This document shows, piece after piece, positions 18,315 through 29,289 of a DNA stretch of 64,000 nt (position 1 is its first letter; each line of letters opens with the position of its first letter). Below the pieces are notes generated by a model. It was not told the origin of the DNA and did not search any database. It worked only from the letters and a program-made list of their open reading frames with translations. The translations under genes and the position numbers were made by a program. Origin of the DNA: Thermoleptolyngbya sichuanensis A183 (GTDB lineage: Bacteria > Cyanobacteriota > Cyanobacteriia > Elainellales > Elainellaceae); the NCBI RefSeq assembly GCF_013177315.1, contig NZ_CP053661.1:3844001-3908000 (forward strand), in the 5' to 3' direction.

Positions 18315-19904
18315 TTAGCGTCGTCGCCACCACACGCCCACCGCCAGCGCCAGCCCCGCCAGCGGCAAAAAGACCAGCGAGGCAAGAATCAGCGCAATTT
18401 GCTGGGAGGGCGAGAACAGTACGCGGCGATTGGTGGGTTCGGCAGCGCGGACGGAGAAGGTGGGGTCGGCTTCTTGACTGAGCCAGCCAATGGCGTTGAG
18501 GAAGAGGTCGCGGTTCAACTGCTGGTCAATCAGTCCGTTGGTGGCAAACGTGGAGTTGCCGATCGCCACCATTCGCGCTTCGTCCTGAACAGGCGGCTCC
18601 TCTGCGTCGGGCGAGGGGCTGGGGGTGGGCGCGTTTGACAGGCGACGGCTGAAGGCAGCGCCCAGAACGAGATTGCCCTCCGGCGCTTCGGGGTCAAGCT
18701 GGAGCTGGCCGTCTTCGCCGATTTGCTGGGCCTGGGTGCGGGCATTGGTAAACAGCAGCGGAGTCATCTCTACGCCCTCGACTTCGCCTAGTTCGAGCGG
18801 CCGCGCCAGGGGAAAGAAGGTGATGCCGTTGTTGAGTCCGTCGGTGATGGGGTGCGGGCCATATTCCGTGATGATGGTGACTGCGCCATCGCGGCCGGCG
18901 ACGGGGTCTACCAGGATGCGATCGCTAAAGGCAACGCCCCAGCCTTCTAGCAAATCGTCCAGTTCAGGATTCGCCTGAGGATCGACCAGCAGCAACAGTC
19001 CGCCCTTGCGGGTCTGAAAGTCTTTGAGGCGAGTGATTTCTTCTGCCAAAAGCGGCCGCTGGGGGCCAGCCACCACAATTACCGCAGCGTCGGCGGGAAT
19101 TTCGGCAGTGTTTGCCAGGTTCAGCGGTTCTGCCTGAAAGGTTTCGTCCGTTAGGCTAGTGAGGGCCTGGGCCAGCCCGCCTTGACCGGGGTTCAGTTCT
19201 CGTTCGCCGTGCCCTTGCAGGAAGTAGACTTTGGTCTGGCGATCGCTCGTGATCTTCACCAGCGCAGTGGTCAGCCGTCGCTCCGAGAGGCGCTGGGAGG
19301 GGCTGATGGTCTGCACCAACTGGCGGCGATTCCCAGAGGAATCGCTTCGCGAATCGCCCTTCTCTACATACACTTCGCCAAAGTTCTGCACGCCAAAGCG
19401 CTCGGCAAGTCCGGGCTGCACCTGCGGATCGACATATTCATAGGCGAACCCGTCAGGATTTTGGCGGCGATAGTTTTCCAGCAGATCGCGATCGGCAGGA
19501 TTCGGTGCCAGGTCAAAGATCCACACTTTGACGGGATCTTCCAGCGACTTCACCACCTCCTGCGACTGGGGCGCAAGGGTGAACAGGCGATTCTCCGTCA
19601 GGTCTAGGCGCGTGTTGTAGCGCGTCGCCAAAAAGTTTGTGAGCAGGAAAATAGCCAGCACCGCCAGCGTTGCCAGCACCGCATTCGTGCCCGCCTGGGT
19701 CGAGCGTTTGCCCCATAGTCCCTGAAATCCGCTGGCCTGCGACCCCAGCCACACCACCAATAGCCCAATGCCCGCGCTCAGCAGCCCAGCAGGTATGGGG
19801 CCCCAGGTTCCTGCCACCAAACCTGCCGTTAGCCCCATGAGAATCAGGAACAGGCCGGGCCAGATTAGGTGTTTGAGTTTGAGGTAGGAACGGAGGGGTT
19901 TCAT
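18315..19904 (-). CDS. GldG-like ABC exporter accessory protein
   Basis: 529-aa membrane protein with two or three N-terminal helices (LIWPGLFLILMGLTAGLVAG; NAVLATLAVLAIFLLTNFLA), a large extracytoplasmic domain (LDLTENRLFTLAPQSQEVVKSL, the GldG/DUF4350-type start; VYFLQGHGERELN; DFQTRKGGLLLLVDPQANPE) and a C-terminal helix. It partners the ABC permease upstream and the DUF4340 protein downstream. Homologues are needed for gliding in Bacteroidetes; in cyanobacteria the exported substrate is unknown. Confidence 0.9.
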   Translation of the reverse strand: MKPLRSYLKLKHLIWPGLFLILMGLTAGLVAGTWGPIPAGLLSAGIGLLVVWLGSQASGFQGLWGKRSTQAGTNAVLATLAVLAIFLLTNFLATRYNTRLDLTENRLFTLAPQSQEVVKSLEDPVKVWIFDLAPNPADRDLLENYRRQNPDGFAYEYVDPQVQPGLAERFGVQNFGEVYVEKGDSRSDSSGNRRQLVQTISPSQRLSERRLTTALVKITSDRQTKVYFLQGHGERELNPGQGGLAQALTSLTDETFQAEPLNLANTAEIPADAAVIVVAGPQRPLLAEEITRLKDFQTRKGGLLLLVDPQANPELDDLLEGWGVAFSDRILVDPVAGRDGAVTIITEYGPHPITDGLNNGITFFPLARPLELGEVEGVEMTPLLFTNARTQAQQIGEDGQLQLDPEAPEGNLVLGAAFSRRLSNAPTPSPSPDAEEPPVQDEARMVAIGNSTFATNGLIDQQLNRDLFLNAIGWLSQEADPTFSVRAAEPTNRRVLFSPSQQIALILASLVFLPLAGLALAVGVWWRRR

Positions 19905-19972
19905 GGGGAAGAGGGAAGGGGGAAGAGAAAAGAACGAAGAGGAAAAAGGGAAGAACGAAGAGCGAAGAGGGG
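19905..19972. repeat. GAAGAGGGAAGAACGAAGAG array
   Basis: A purine-rich array of the same family as those at 12010 and 17440, filling the spacer between the permease stop and the GldG start. Confidence 0.8.
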
Positions 19973-19991
19973 TGTTTTATAGGAACGCGGG

Positions 19992-20792
19992 TTAGGAACG
20001 CTGGAATCGGAGGGCTTCGATGGATTGGGCGGTGAGGAAGATGCCCAGCAGGATGTAGCTGAGGTAGAGGACGAGGCTGCTGGTGTTGAAGATGCCTCGG
20101 CTGAGGTCGTTGTAGTGTTTGATTAGCGAGAGGTGGGCGATCGCCTCTCCGGTGGGGCCGCCGACCCCGTTGGCGATTAGGTCGGTGACCCAGAGCAGCA
20201 GCATCAGCCCAAAGGTCAGCACAGCGGCGAGGATGGTGCTGTCGGTGAGGGAGGAGATGAACATGCCCAGGGACAGTACGGCGGCGGCCATCAGAATCAG
20301 TCCCAGATGCCCCATCAGCAGCACGTTCAGGTTGGCGGCGGGGTTCGATGCGGCAAACAGGGTGCTTTCATACAGCAGGATAGGCAGCAGCATGGTGATG
20401 AAGAAAGTCAGCACGCCCAGCAGTTTGCCGACGGCGACGGCCCAGTTGGTAATGGGCGAGGTGGCCAGCAGTTCCAGCGTGCCGCGCTTGCGCTCTTCGG
20501 AATAGAGTCCCATCGACAGCATCGGCAGCAAGAACAGCGCCAGGGAACCCAGCAGCCCTAGAAACACGTTCAGGAACTGGTAGGGCACGTCCACCGGTGG
20601 GTCGGTGATGCCGGCTTGGTCGCGCTGGGCAACGGCGGCGAACAATCCCTCTGGGCCAAACAGAATGACCACGAAGAAGAAGCCGCTCAGCAGCCAAAAC
20701 ACGGCGGCGATCGCATAGGCAAAGGGGGAGGCAAAGTAGCTCTGGAGTTCTCGCCGATAAATTGCCAGAATGTTGCTCAAAATGACGCGCAT
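19992..20792 (-). CDS. ABC-2 type transporter permease (GldF-like)
   Basis: 266-aa integral membrane protein with six hydrophobic segments. The N-terminus IYRRELQSYFASPFAYAIAA and the motif SMGLYSEERKRGTLELLATSPI are hallmarks of ABC-2 permeases of the NosY/GldF group. It pairs with the ATPase encoded directly upstream (adjacent stop and start) to form an exporter in the inner membrane. Confidence 0.92.
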   Translation of the reverse strand: MRVILSNILAIYRRELQSYFASPFAYAIAAVFWLLSGFFFVVILFGPEGLFAAVAQRDQAGITDPPVDVPYQFLNVFLGLLGSLALFLLPMLSMGLYSEERKRGTLELLATSPITNWAVAVGKLLGVLTFFITMLLPILLYESTLFAASNPAANLNVLLMGHLGLILMAAAVLSLGMFISSLTDSTILAAVLTFGLMLLLWVTDLIANGVGGPTGEAIAHLSLIKHYNDLSRGIFNTSSLVLYLSYILLGIFLTAQSIEALRFQRS

Positions 20793-21806
20793 CTAGGCTG
20801 CTTCCTCCTGGGATGGGGACTGGTTTTGGGGTTCATTGGAAAGACTGGGGTCGGGGTCGGCGGGCGCGTCGGCCATGGTGAGTTCCAGAAACACCTGCTC
20901 TAGGTCGGCCTGCACCCGCCGCATTTCATACAGCCCTAGCCCTGCACCGATGACCGTGGCGGCAATGTCGCGGCCGGGGTCGGTTCCTGGATTGGAGATG
21001 ACGCGCAGTTTGTAGCGGTGGGGCGGCAGCCCTTCGACGGTTAGTGCGGTGACGGACTTTACGCCTGCGAGGTATTGCAGCCGCTCCTGAGCCACCAGCA
21101 GTTCGCCCTCCACTTCTAGCTCATAGCCCGCACCGCCCGACAGGTCTTCCATCAGGCGATCGGGCGTGTTGGTGGCGACGACGCGGCCGCGGTTGATGAT
21201 AGCGACGCGGCTACAGGTCATGCTGACTTCCGGCAGAATGTGGGTCGAAAGAATGATGGTGTGGTCGCCGGCCAGACTTTTAATCAGGTTCCGCACGTCG
21301 ATGATTTGGCGCGGGTCGAGGCCGACGGTCGGTTCGTCCAGCACGATGACGGGCGGGTCGTGGACGATCGCCTGGGCAATGCCGACCCGCTGCCGAAAGC
21401 CCTTAGACAGCTTGCGAATCAGGGTGTCTCGCCGTTCCACTAGGTTGCAGCGTTCTAGGGAAGACTGGACCCGCTGGGGGCGATCGCCCGCTGCCACGCC
21501 CTTCAGCCGCGCCACAAAATGCAGAAACCCTTCCACCGTCATGTCGGGATAGAGGGGCGGCGTTTCTGGCAAATAGCCAATCCGCTGCCGCACGGCCATC
21601 GAGTCCTCATGCACGTCGAACCCGGCTACGGTAGCGGTGCCGCTGGTGGCGGGCAAGTACCCGGTCAAAATCCGCATCGTCGTTGTCTTGCCTGCCCCAT
21701 TTGGCCCCAAAAAGCCCAAAATTTCTCCCGGCTCCACCGAAAACGTCACATCGGTAATCGCAGGGGTGGAACCATAGACTTTGCTGAGGTGTTCGACGGT
21801 AATCAT
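20793..21806 (-). CDS. ABC transporter ATP-binding protein (GldA-like)
   Basis: 337-aa ATPase with Walker A GPNGAGKTTT, signature LSKGFRQRV, Walker B PPVIVLDEPTVGLDP and switch His in ILSTHILPE. The last 90 residues form the regulatory domain seen in GldA-type ATPases. ATG at 21806 gives the canonical MITVEHLSKVYG start; a longer frame to 22118 runs through repeat DNA. It energises the permease encoded next to it and heads the run ATPase-permease-GldG-DUF4340. Confidence 0.95.
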   Translation of the reverse strand: MITVEHLSKVYGSTPAITDVTFSVEPGEILGFLGPNGAGKTTTMRILTGYLPATSGTATVAGFDVHEDSMAVRQRIGYLPETPPLYPDMTVEGFLHFVARLKGVAAGDRPQRVQSSLERCNLVERRDTLIRKLSKGFRQRVGIAQAIVHDPPVIVLDEPTVGLDPRQIIDVRNLIKSLAGDHTIILSTHILPEVSMTCSRVAIINRGRVVATNTPDRLMEDLSGGAGYELEVEGELLVAQERLQYLAGVKSVTALTVEGLPPHRYKLRVISNPGTDPGRDIAATVIGAGLGLYEMRRVQADLEQVFLELTMADAPADPDPSLSNEPQNQSPSQEEAA

Positions 21807-21954
21807 GAGGGGCAGGCAGGATGAAGGGTTAGGTCGTGTTGGCGAAAGGGAACAAGCAGGGTTTGAGAAATTCTGAGGTTTAGGGAGATCTAATTCCTGA
21901 GTGACTTCCTGAGTGGTGCTACGAATGCAATTGCTGGAGTCCATGAAAACGCTT

Positions 21955-22310
21955 GGCGAGCAATCCAAAATCGCAAGTCCAAAATCCAAAATCGAGAATC
22001 GACCTTGGAGGATCGAAAGCGATCCGGACCAACATTCCCAATCTTGGCTCTCTCCACTCCCAACAACGGCAAATTGTAGCCAACATTGCGAATTTTCGAT
22101 CTGACGGAGATGTGTCAAGCGTGTGACAGCACCTCGAATTCTTGTCTTGCGACTGATTCACTGCGGCTGATTCACTGCGGCTGATTCACTACGGCTCATA
22201 CCTTGCGGCTTATGCTTTGCGACTCATGCTTTGCGCCTCAGGTTCCAATATCTGACCCCTAGCTCGGCCCCTAGCTCGACCCTTGGCTCGACCCTCAGCG
22301 CCATTCTTGG
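21955..22310. repeat. Repeat-rich spacer upstream of the ABC operon
   Basis: No gene is seen. The stretch holds CCAAAATC units (21960-22005), then ten or so degenerate units of CTGATTCACTGCGG and CTCATGCTTTGCG (22140-22245) and then four of TAGCTCGGCCC / TGGCTCGACCC (22259-22295). These are typical of cyanobacterial short tandemly repeated sequences. Confidence 0.65.
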
Positions 22311-22311
22311 T

Positions 22312-24876
22312 TCAGTGTTGACTGACCACGCTCCACCAGACGAGGAGGGCAATCGCCCCTAGACCGACGTGCTGCGGCAGCAGATTTTGCAAGGGCTGGC
22401 GGGCAATTTTTTGCGTTAGGAAAATGCTGAGGGCGAGGGTGCTGAGCAGCGTCACGCCCTGTAGAAACGCAATCACGGCGGGATGGGCGACGACGACGGG
22501 CATCCCTGCGCCGCTCAGTCCAAAGGTGGCGAGGGTGACGGGCACGATGCGGCCGGCTTCGGTCAGTCCCAGATGCAGATAGTGCGCCAGGTTGCAGCCC
22601 AGCACCAGGGGCAGATAGCCGTAGGCCAGTTCGATGAAGGGCTTGGGTTTGGGGGTGATGCGCTCGATCAGGCTGTGGCAAAGGAGGGCGATCGCCCCTG
22701 GCAACACCAGCGCGATCGCCGCCAGTCCGGCATGAAGCGCAAAGGGGCCGAGCGGAGCCGCGTCGTATTGCAGCAGCGTGGCCAGCAGATCGCTGTCGCC
22801 AAACCCCAGCAGCGTCAAAATTGTCGGCAGCCGATGCAGCACCACCGCCCCCGCCAGCAAAAACAGCAGGCACACCTCCGGTCGCGTGGGCTTGTGGGTG
22901 GTCCAAAGTTCAATGCCGGGGGGCCGCAGGTTGAGTTCTACCGAGCGGTGCGGACAGGCCTTCAGGCAGGTCATACACAGCACGCAGTCGCGGTTGTCCT
23001 GGAGCTGCGCCGGGTGCGAATAAATTGGACAGCCGCCGGTTTCCTGTCCTTCGCCCTTTTGCGGCCCGCCCTTATAGCACTGGTAGGTCGTGCAGTTGGC
23101 GGAACAGATCCCCTGCTGCGCCCGCAGTTCAATCATCGACAGCTTGGCAAACAGGCCGTTCATGCCGCCGATGGGGCAGAGATAGCGACACCAGAAGCGC
23201 CGCTCAAACAGGAACGAGAAAATCACGGCTCCGGCGGTAATCAGCAGCAGCAGGCAGGCCGAGAGGTACGCCGTGTTTCCCAAATGCCACAGTTCTTCCC
23301 AGAGCAAAATCAGCGCAAATAGCCCAAACAGAAACCAGCCGCCCCATTTTTCTGCCTCTGGGCGCGACCAGGGCAGCAGCTTGCGCCCCAGCACGCGGGT
23401 CGAGAGTTTTTGCGAAATTTCGCCGTAGATCATAAACGGGCACACCGCGCACCACAGCCGCCCCACAAACGGGAAGCCAACCAGCACCAGCGGCCACCAC
23501 CAGGCCCAAAAGAAATTCAGCGCAAAGTTTTGGTCGCGGGTCTGCGGGCCCAGCCAGAGAACTGCAATCACCAGCGGAAAAAACCAGACCGTGAAGCCGT
23601 AGTTTATCCGGTCGGGCCACCACGGGCTGCGAAGAAACTGGCGCAGTTTGGGATAGGCGTTGAGCAGGTTGACCCGAAAGCGGCGGGTCTTGCTGCCCGT
23701 TGCCCAAAACACCTCTTCCGTTAGCACAGGCGCACCGCTGGACTGGATGATGGCGCGGCCGACCATGCCCTCTAGCTCCGTCAGGTTGCCGGGAAAGTCG
23801 TAGCCCTGGAGCCGCCGCAGCGCCTCTGGGGCAAGGGTGGGACGGGCCAGGCCGCGCGAGGAACAGTAGAGGCTGATGTAGTAATTCACCTGGGTTTCGA
23901 GGTCGGCCTTTCGCACGCGCAGGGGCGGCACTTTGATGGCGTGGCCAACGTGGCGATCGAGTTCGGGGAGCGATCGCTCTGAGGTGAAGATAATTCGCGC
24001 ACCCGACTGACGCGGTTCTGGTTCTGGATCACCTTCGCGGGCGACGGGACGGTAGGTTCCCGTTTCCAGCAGTTCCGCCAGCCTGGGCTGGAGCGCCTTG
24101 GGCACGTCCTGCACGTTGTTGATTAGCAGCGTGCCGTTGCCCAACCAGCTCAGTAAACCGGGCTTGCCATTCACCCGGCCAAACAGGTCTGCGCCGCTGG
24201 GTTGCAGCATATCGCCGTTGAGCTTGATCATGGGCTGCTTGCGATCGCCACTGCCAAAGTGGATCAGCGCGGCCGCGTTGTCCTTGCCTAGCCCCGGCTC
24301 GCCAAAGATGAGAACCGGACGGCGATCGCCCGCTGCTTTTTTGATCTCCTGCCGCAGCCGCACCGCATAGCGACTCGCGCCCACAATGCCCCGCCGCACC
24401 TTGGGCACCAGGTAGGGACGCAGGGCCGCCTGTCGCTCTTGCTCAAAGACAAGCTGGGAACTGAGTTCCGTCACCTCGTCTGCCAACTGCCGCGACACGG
24501 TGCGGTTTAGCTCCGGAAACTGCGCCACTAGGTCGCGGAATGCCCCGCGGGGCACTGTCCAAATTTCGCAATCGCTGAGGGTGATGACGGTATGTTCCGC
24601 AGGCGTTTCGAGCAGCAGTTCTTTCAAATACAGCACCGAACCGGGCAGCAGGCTAACGGTGTCTGCCATGCTGTCGGGTCGGGTGCGATAGCGCTCCAGC
24701 CGCCCCGATTTCAGAATGTAAAGCGCTTTGGGTTCGGTGTCTTCCAGCGCCAGCCGATGGTTTTCGGGAAGACGGATCTCGCGAACCTGCTGGGCGATCG
24801 CCCTCACCGCCGCCTCCGATAGCTCCCCAAACTGGGTCTGCTGCTGTATCCACTGCACCCGCTCGGAAATTTGCAT
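22312..24876 (-). CDS. cNMP-domain / degenerate sigma54-type AAA+ / membrane polyferredoxin fusion
   Basis: 854 aa in three parts. Residues 1-150 are a cyclic-nucleotide-binding-like domain (LPENHRLALEDTEPKALYILKSGRLERY). Residues about 160-400 resemble a sigma54-activator AAA+ domain (IFGEPGLGKDNAAALIHFGS; GNGTLLINNVQDVPKALQPRLAELLETGTYRPV), but the GAFTGA loop is absent and Walker B lacks the acidic pair (LLINN). Residues about 420-854 have about ten membrane helices with paired CxxxCP motifs (CAVCP, CRYLCPIGG) and a 4Fe-4S site (CVLCMTCLKACP), as in NapH/CcoG polyferredoxins. It is probably a membrane redox sensor or electron carrier. Cyanobacteria generally lack sigma-54, so the AAA part must do something else. 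It is divergent from an ArsR gene. Confidence 0.88.
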   Translation of the reverse strand: MQISERVQWIQQQTQFGELSEAAVRAIAQQVREIRLPENHRLALEDTEPKALYILKSGRLERYRTRPDSMADTVSLLPGSVLYLKELLLETPAEHTVITLSDCEIWTVPRGAFRDLVAQFPELNRTVSRQLADEVTELSSQLVFEQERQAALRPYLVPKVRRGIVGASRYAVRLRQEIKKAAGDRRPVLIFGEPGLGKDNAAALIHFGSGDRKQPMIKLNGDMLQPSGADLFGRVNGKPGLLSWLGNGTLLINNVQDVPKALQPRLAELLETGTYRPVAREGDPEPEPRQSGARIIFTSERSLPELDRHVGHAIKVPPLRVRKADLETQVNYYISLYCSSRGLARPTLAPEALRRLQGYDFPGNLTELEGMVGRAIIQSSGAPVLTEEVFWATGSKTRRFRVNLLNAYPKLRQFLRSPWWPDRINYGFTVWFFPLVIAVLWLGPQTRDQNFALNFFWAWWWPLVLVGFPFVGRLWCAVCPFMIYGEISQKLSTRVLGRKLLPWSRPEAEKWGGWFLFGLFALILLWEELWHLGNTAYLSACLLLLITAGAVIFSFLFERRFWCRYLCPIGGMNGLFAKLSMIELRAQQGICSANCTTYQCYKGGPQKGEGQETGGCPIYSHPAQLQDNRDCVLCMTCLKACPHRSVELNLRPPGIELWTTHKPTRPEVCLLFLLAGAVVLHRLPTILTLLGFGDSDLLATLLQYDAAPLGPFALHAGLAAIALVLPGAIALLCHSLIERITPKPKPFIELAYGYLPLVLGCNLAHYLHLGLTEAGRIVPVTLATFGLSGAGMPVVVAHPAVIAFLQGVTLLSTLALSIFLTQKIARQPLQNLLPQHVGLGAIALLVWWSVVSQH

Positions 24877-25028: not shown

Positions 25029-25070
25029 ATTGTTAATATTTTGGGATTAAGCCTTTTTGAAACGACCCGC

Positions 25071-25442
25071 ATGAAAACGGTAGATCCGGTCTCAGTTGAG
25101 ATTATGCAGCAGGTGGCGGAGTATTTCAGCGTCCTCAGTGAGCCGACCCGCCTCCGCATTCTCAGCGTCCTCCGCAACGGCGAACGGTGTGTGCAAGATC
25201 TGGTCGAAGCGACCGCCACCAGCCAGGCCAACGTCTCCAAGCACCTGAAAGTGATGCTGCAAGCAGGCATCCTCTCGCGCCGCACCGAGGGCACCTCTGC
25301 ATACTACAGCGTGCAGGATGACCTGACGTTTGAACTGTGTAATCTGGTGTGCGATCGCCTCGCCAGCCGCATCGAACTCCAGGCACGCCGATTTCGAGCC
25401 TTTGGGCTGACCAGTGGGCAAGTCTTGAAGCGGTCGGTATGA
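25071..25442 (+). CDS. ArsR/SmtB family winged-helix repressor
   Basis: 123-aa regulator with the family core EYFSVLSEPTRLRILSVLRN, ATATSQANVSKHLKVMLQAGIL and YYSVQDDL. One Cys is in the recognition region (GERCVQDL) and two are in the last helix (ELCNLVCDRL). There is no CxC arsenic motif. The pattern of one early and later cysteines is reminiscent of the persulfide sensors BigR/SqrR, but also of metal sensors. ATG at 25071 preferred over a TTG ten codons earlier. Divergent from the polyferredoxin fusion gene, which is the probable target. Confidence 0.9.
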   Translation: MKTVDPVSVEIMQQVAEYFSVLSEPTRLRILSVLRNGERCVQDLVEATATSQANVSKHLKVMLQAGILSRRTEGTSAYYSVQDDLTFELCNLVCDRLASRIELQARRFRAFGLTSGQVLKRSV

Positions 25443-28334: not shown

Positions 28335-28907
28335 TCATTCTGGCGAGGCATAGTAACAGCAATGGGAGAACCAATTCTGTAGGTCATTCAATGACACTTG
28401 GGAGAAGGACTCCTCAATGGCTTTGTCTAGATCAAGATAGCTCCGTGCCCCAAGGGAGCGCAGAATACTCTTAATCTTTGAAAAGCAATTCTCGATGGGT
28501 GAAAAGTCCGGCGAGTACGGCGGTAGAAACATCAGTTTAGCACCTGCATCCTCAATCAACCTCCTAACTTCTTCACCAAGATGAATCGAGCAGTTATCCA
28601 TGATGACACATGCCCCTTTCCACAACTTAGGAACGAGTCTCTGGGAAATGAAGGCTTCAAAGGTAAGTCCATCGACTGAACCGATGAGATTGGAATAGGT
28701 AATTACCTTTTTAAGGCTAATTGCACCAAGAATCGAGACCCGTTTCCCTCGTTTGCTGGGACGCTTACCATGGGCTCGTTTTCCTTTCGGGGCACGTGCC
28801 CGGAGTCGAGTCAAAGCCAGGTTCACTCCTGATTCGTCAATAAAGATTAAGTCTTGAGCCAGGAATCCTCGAACCAGTTGCCAAAATTTGACTCGTTCGA
28901 TTTGCAC
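28335..28907 (-). CDS. IS630 transposase, catalytic part (frame 2)
   Basis: DDE_3-type domain: DLIFIDESGVNLALTR (first Asp), KGACVIMDNCSIHLGEEV (second Asp) and PPYSPDFSPIENCFSKIKS (Glu). It lacks the helix-turn-helix part, which is in the preceding frame; the two are offset by one base at an A8 run near 28938-28945. Expression as a fusion by ribosomal slippage at that run is usual for many IS630 elements. Confidence 0.88.
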   Translation of the reverse strand: MQIERVKFWQLVRGFLAQDLIFIDESGVNLALTRLRARAPKGKRAHGKRPSKRGKRVSILGAISLKKVITYSNLIGSVDGLTFEAFISQRLVPKLWKGACVIMDNCSIHLGEEVRRLIEDAGAKLMFLPPYSPDFSPIENCFSKIKSILRSLGARSYLDLDKAIEESFSQVSLNDLQNWFSHCCYYASPE

Positions 28908-28911
28908 CCGT

Positions 28912-29289
28912 TCAGTTTCCTTTTTGTCGGGATACAGCGTTTTTTTTAAGGGTTAAGTTCAGTTTCTCTAACATACGAAACATCGTCGAAACGCCAATCC
29001 GAACACCGACCCTTTGTTCCAGCAAGTCACACAACTCTGCCAATGTCGCGTCATGATTTGATTCAGCAATCGTTTTTAGGATCTCTAGTTGCTCATTACT
29101 TAATTTGGTTGGCGTTTGCTCAGTGCGGCGTTTGGGGGCAATCTCACCTGTTTCCCGATATTGTTTGATCAGCTTTCGCACGAAACTGTAAGCAACTCGA
29201 AATTGTTGAGCGATTTGACGTTGCGACGTATTCCCTTCAATGTAGACATCAATAATTTTTTGTCTAAGATCTAGTGAGTAGGGTCGCAT
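28912..29289 (-). CDS. IS630 transposase, HTH part (frame 1)
   Basis: 125 aa starting MRPYSLDLRQKIIDVYIEGN, the standard IS630 N-terminus, with two helix-turn-helix segments (TSQRQIAQQFRVAYSFVRKL; LEILKTIAESNHDATLAELC). The frame ends just after the A8 slippery run shared with the catalytic frame. Confidence 0.88.
   Translation of the reverse strand: MRPYSLDLRQKIIDVYIEGNTSQRQIAQQFRVAYSFVRKLIKQYRETGEIAPKRRTEQTPTKLSNEQLEILKTIAESNHDATLAELCDLLEQRVGVRIGVSTMFRMLEKLNLTLKKNAVSRQKGN

Follow-up and report, generated by a model that had tools for sequence, protein, structure and literature searches.

The gene at 22312-24876 on the reverse strand of the window very probably encodes an orthologue of FesM, an electron carrier in cyclic electron flow, with a soluble half that has no transcriptional function. 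The window is the whole stretch of DNA that was analysed, i.e. 64,000 nucleotides of the Thermoleptolyngbya sichuanensis A183 genome. The AAA+ part of the soluble half appears to be an eroded version of the motor of transcription activators, without the parts for ATP hydrolysis or for contact with sigma-54. Among the components of cyclic electron flow, FesM is one of the less understood. With a conserved pseudo-ATPase as its NtrC-like domain, in a phylum that has no sigma-54, it can no longer be regarded as a sigma-54 regulator.

The gene is one unbroken frame of 854 amino acids, in which a cNMP-like domain is followed by a sigma54-activator-type AAA+ domain with its lid and by a NapH-type membrane 4Fe-4S domain. 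The following features were located:

22312..24876, reverse strand: probable fesM orthologue, cNMP-like / AAA+ / membrane 4Fe-4S, 854 aa
24520..24774, reverse strand: cNMP-binding-type beta-barrel domain, residues 35-119, with an apparently degenerate phosphate-binding cassette
23962..24387, reverse strand: sigma54-activator-type AAA+ core, residues 164-305
24280..24303, reverse strand: Walker A GEPGLGKD, residues 192-199
24154..24180, reverse strand: site of the missing GAFTGA (L1) loop, residues 233-241
24115..24120, reverse strand: Asn-Asn in place of the Walker B acidic pair, residues 253-254
23716..23919, reverse strand: AAA+ lid, residues 320-387
22324..23622, reverse strand: membrane domain, predicted transmembrane helices within residues 419-851
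23437..23451, reverse strand: CxxCP, residues 476-480, Fer4_5 type, invariant Cys
23173..23190, reverse strand: CxxxCP, residues 563-568, Fer4_5 type, invariant Cys
23026..23106, reverse strand: C-x3-C-x4-C-x15-CP, residues 591-617, probably the first half of a 2[4Fe-4S] module
22951..22986, reverse strand: C-x2-C-x2-C-x3-CP, residues 631-642, ferredoxin-type 4Fe-4S motif

Pfam matches above cut-off were obtained for cNMP_binding (residues 35-119, 5e-13), Sigma54_activat (164-305, 8e-14), AAA_lid_14 (320-387, 3e-9) and, twice, Fer4_5 (best match 543-579, 7e-9), and weak Fer4 matches were seen at residues 626-643. The NCBIfam model TIGR02163 (NapH/MauN family) matched residues 470-648 at 5e-13, scoring 49 bits against a cut-off of 213. 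This order agrees with the sequence-only reading, which had placed the AAA+ domain between a cNMP-like domain and a membrane 4Fe-4S carrier. The sigma54-activator-like character that it had given to the AAA+ region was also recovered. A fold predicted from a 75-member alignment (pLDDT 84) matched cNMP domains over residues 1-141 at Z ~17, and the AAA+ domains of FleQ, NtrC1 and PspF over residues 159-393 at Z 22-25 with an rmsd of 2-3 Å. The protein shares the AAA+ and lid fold of the sigma-54 activators PspF, NtrC1, FleQ and FlrC (Z 22-25 over ~225 residues, 24-29% identity). In contrast to these activators, it lacks the GAFTGA loop, the Walker B acids, a DNA-binding domain and a sigma-54 in the same cell, and its AAA+ domain is fused to a membrane electron carrier.

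An electron-transfer protein in which cNMP, NtrC-like and 4Fe-4S parts are fused is largely known already, as FesM. Xu, Liu and Zhao (Plant Physiol 2005, 138:1586; doi 10.1104/pp.105.061549) reportedly described FesM of Synechococcus (Picosynechococcus) sp. PCC 7002 as a protein in which a cAMP-binding and an NtrC-like domain are combined with a redox sensor motif and a 4Fe-4S motif. The same four-part architecture was found in a Picosynechococcus relative (L106) that is 61% identical to the window protein over 839 aa. The identity with FesM was tested in near kin of PCC 7002, namely the genome that carries L106 (G056) and its congener G081; one contig of G056 matches plasmid pAQ7 of PCC 7002 with 96% identity over 7.7 kb. 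In both genomes, the orthologue of the window gene was the sole Fer4_5 membrane iron-sulfur gene found, and also the sole Sigma54_activ_2 match above cut-off. FesM of PCC 7002 is therefore almost certainly the orthologue of the window gene, because no second Fer4_5 gene was found in these genomes. The two proteins are alike in architecture and come from different species.

According to PMC9003380, fesM of PCC 7002 encodes a membrane iron-sulfur protein on which cyclic electron flow around PSI and photoheterotrophic growth depend: mutants without fesM are affected in PSI cyclic flow and unable to grow with glycerol. The electron-carrier function in the earlier proposal of an electron-transfer protein with a repurposed AAA+ scaffold agrees with this fesM phenotype, and the proposal is partly supported. 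In Synechocystis, slr0593 is annotated as a 'cAMP binding membrane protein' (PMC3516471), and may be the orthologue of the window gene.

In total, relatives were confirmed at 239 loci in a species-level genome collection, and the best 80 of these 239 were all cyanobacterial. Strong matches occurred in ~70 of the 291 sampled genomes of the phylum, with full-length homologues falling in the photosynthetic class. Many cyanobacteria in the same sample, e.g. small-genome picocyanobacteria, gave no match, which implies that FesM is not universally needed. The family comprises three forms. The main form shows 54-91% identity. A second form (~40% identity) has a canonical P-loop, PPGSGKT, and D-N at Walker B. 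In a third, picocyanobacterial-type form, which has no cNMP domain, the Walker B pair is D-[QC] or S-G. None of the three retains the GAFTGA loop or the glutamate of Walker B.

The loss of these motifs was followed residue by residue. At the position where an intact activator (L127, from a distantly related member of the phylum) has FGHEKGAYTGATKRRIGLL in the same alignment, the window protein reads FGRVNGKPGLL, and none of the 75 family members in the sampled set has a GAFTGA-like loop; the L1 loop of the orthologues has a constant short length. The Walker B motif of the window protein is LLINN, versus (F)LDE in activators, and both asparagines are kept across the 108 orthologues (N253 in 106, N254 in 105). 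Both losses had been claimed from the window protein, and they extend to its family. Because the co-aligned L127 shows GAYTGA, DE and FRKDLFYRL at the corresponding positions, the alignment would have revealed these motifs if they were present. We reject the idea that the Walker B loss reflects a sequencing error or an artefact in a single genome, as the asparagine pair recurs in 105-106 of 108 orthologues. The motif-loss state is conserved family-wide, and is thus not due to chance.

Other catalytic elements are partly eroded. The stretch of the first arginine-finger candidate is ~11 residues shorter than in activators. R308, which is kept in 82 of 108 orthologues, aligns with the second candidate (R168 of PspF), so we do not claim complete arginine-finger loss. 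The sensor II position, residue 366, is variable (K/R/T/A), and most orthologues have K, T, A or S there instead of the arginine. The AAA+ domain of FesM would thus be a pseudo-ATPase throughout the family that keeps its P-loop lysine. This is a possible addition to the known picture, and may never have been spelled out earlier.

The partner of such a motor is also missing. The Thermoleptolyngbya genome is closed (one contig, 5.53 Mb), and a profile search of it for rpoN matched neither PF04552 nor PF04963 (the DNA-binding and core-binding domains), while all four controls, i.e. E. coli, B. subtilis, Caulobacter and a Bacteroides, gave matches. Among the 291 genomes of the phylum, the sigma-54 DNA-binding domain scored above cut-off only twice, once barely, and the core-binding domain was absent from both genomes concerned. 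In line with this, sigma-54 and its activators were found in none of 29 surveyed cyanobacteria (PMC3162934). The absence of sigma-54 that the sequence-only reading had presumed for this lineage is thereby supported, and neither an rpoN gene in the genome nor homologues with intact GAFTGA and Walker B motifs were found in the family. A soluble half that lacks the GAFTGA loop and the Walker B carboxylates, in a cell that has no sigma-54, cannot remodel a sigma-54 holoenzyme. Judged by these motifs, the AAA+ domain of FesM is unable to serve as an ordinary sigma-54 activator, as had been argued. Hence, the label 'Sigma-54 interaction domain' in cyanobacterial genomes does not mean sigma-54 regulation.

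Two isolated sigma-54-related sequences were noted in the phylum. A 207-aa frame in one cyanobacterium (G123:C1:411956-412339) gave a 62-bit match to the sigma-54 DNA-binding domain without a core-binding domain, and may be a mobile-element protein. L127 itself (G106:C1:126500-129600) has tandem sigma54-activator AAA+ domains with GAYTGA and DE intact, in a genome that is 98% complete and has no sigma-54 domain match; either a contig is missing or L127 is another orphan activator.

Alternatively, the protein might be a membrane-bound regulator of sigma-70-type transcription that follows the logic of VpsR or NosR/NirI, with clusters that read the redox state and an output in gene expression. 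The AAA+ part has its best single-sequence PDB match in VpsR of Vibrio cholerae, which also has no GAFTGA and has an altered Walker B motif (LLND). VpsR is a soluble DNA-binding transcription factor. In the window protein, however, no DNA-binding domain was found with Pfam, and the chain enters the membrane after the lid. At the window locus an ArsR/SmtB-type regulator gene (25041-25442, forward strand) is divergent from fesM across a gap of 164 bp, which might point to regulation, but such a gene was found in only four of the 80 best loci, adjoining fesM in two (L001, L006) and lying within ~2 kb in the other two (L031, L052). We therefore regard a role of FesM as transcription regulator as highly improbable. 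The ArsR/SmtB protein is possibly a regulator of fesM in some lineages.

In our preferred reading, the cNMP-like and AAA+ domains most likely form a non-hydrolysing assembly or sensor module. The Walker A lysine, K198, is invariant in the 108 orthologues, so nucleotide could be bound without being hydrolysed, and the retained lysine would be able to hold it. In a rival reading, the protein is a redox- or nucleotide-gated switch: the AAA+ domain would bind, but not hydrolyse, ATP or ADP and signal the adenylate status to the electron carrier in the membrane, and a cyclic-nucleotide input would come in through the cNMP domain. This would fit the invariance of D325, N364 and E367 alongside the P-loop lysine in all 75 members of set A1, an asparagine pair that is conserved as such rather than scattered, and the full PPGSGKT P-loop of the second form. 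Conversely, 73 of 108 orthologues have E for G197 of Walker A, a change that should impair phosphate binding. Furthermore, the cNMP phosphate-binding cassette seems degenerate, with E86 in 100 of 108 orthologues but an arginine at position 95 in only 29, in a gapped part of the alignment, and the picocyanobacterial-type members have no cNMP domain at all. We hold this reading tentatively, somewhat below an even chance.

The same erosion in G197 and the cNMP cassette, and the lineage that dispenses with the cNMP domain, speak for a pure scaffold, in which the soluble domains would be ligand-free relics that only help the protein to oligomerise or to dock to PSI, NDH-1 or the membrane. The catalytic residues were also lost differently across the three forms (NN, DN, and D[QC] or SG). 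Yet a mere relic would not be expected to keep the Walker A lysine and several residues in the lid and sensor region strictly invariant, and a ligand-free scaffold is likewise a tentative idea, with the balance somewhat against it. A more specific picture, a sigma54-activator AAA+ domain that holds but does not hydrolyse nucleotide and now works, possibly as a ring, as an adenylate or redox sensor gating the iron-sulfur carrier throughout the cyanobacterial family, is in our view rather unlikely. K198, N253/N254 and G197 are the residues to which these comparisons point for how the soluble half would control the carrier.

In the membrane half, all 12 cluster cysteines are invariant, in the 108 orthologues and across the three forms. 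CxxCP (476) and CxxxCP (563) read as NapH-type motifs. As in NapH/MauN-type membrane ferredoxins (Fer4_5), they lie at the ends of membrane helices and are followed by a ferredoxin-type 4Fe-4S motif, but the membrane part of the window protein is longer, with extra C-terminal helices and a regulatory-looking soluble half in front. These C-terminal helices hold conserved histidines (H681, H715 and H765). CcoG and NosR resemble the membrane half as further kin. When the membrane half was modelled alone (pTM 0.87) and compared with the PDB, Foldseek gave no matches at E < 0.001 and no match reached a Z of at least 8; the model from the 75-member alignment was poor (pLDDT < 50) precisely over the 2[4Fe-4S] stretch, residues 589-633. 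Since the membrane fold has no confident PDB match, the electron route and the number of clusters are both deduced from the sequence. By the usual ferredoxin rule, the motifs at 591-617 and 631-642 would bind two ferredoxin-type [4Fe-4S] clusters through eight invariant cysteines, in addition to the CxxCP/CxxxCP set. Electrons would then pass from the reducing side of PSI or from reduced ferredoxin to the plastoquinone pool. This transfer would be part of cyclic electron flow, a role taken from the literature; the invariant cysteines agree with it, as do the photosynthetic cyanobacteria in which full-length homologues occur. A second Fer4_5 reading frame was observed in the Thermoleptolyngbya genome (G000:C1:2743179-2743307, within a 953-aa frame), with no match to FesM at E 0.001.

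Among the best 80 of the 239 loci, no conserved operon or partner genes were found and the neighbours were clade-specific; ABC genes near fesM were not consistently kept. In the window, an ABC ATPase, an ABC-2 permease and an auxiliary protein form a cluster at 18315-22118 (reverse strand) that resembles the GldA/GldF/GldG set. Two adjoining reading frames at 28335-28907 and 28912-29289 (reverse strand) resemble, by reading, the halves of a split IS630-type transposase gene.
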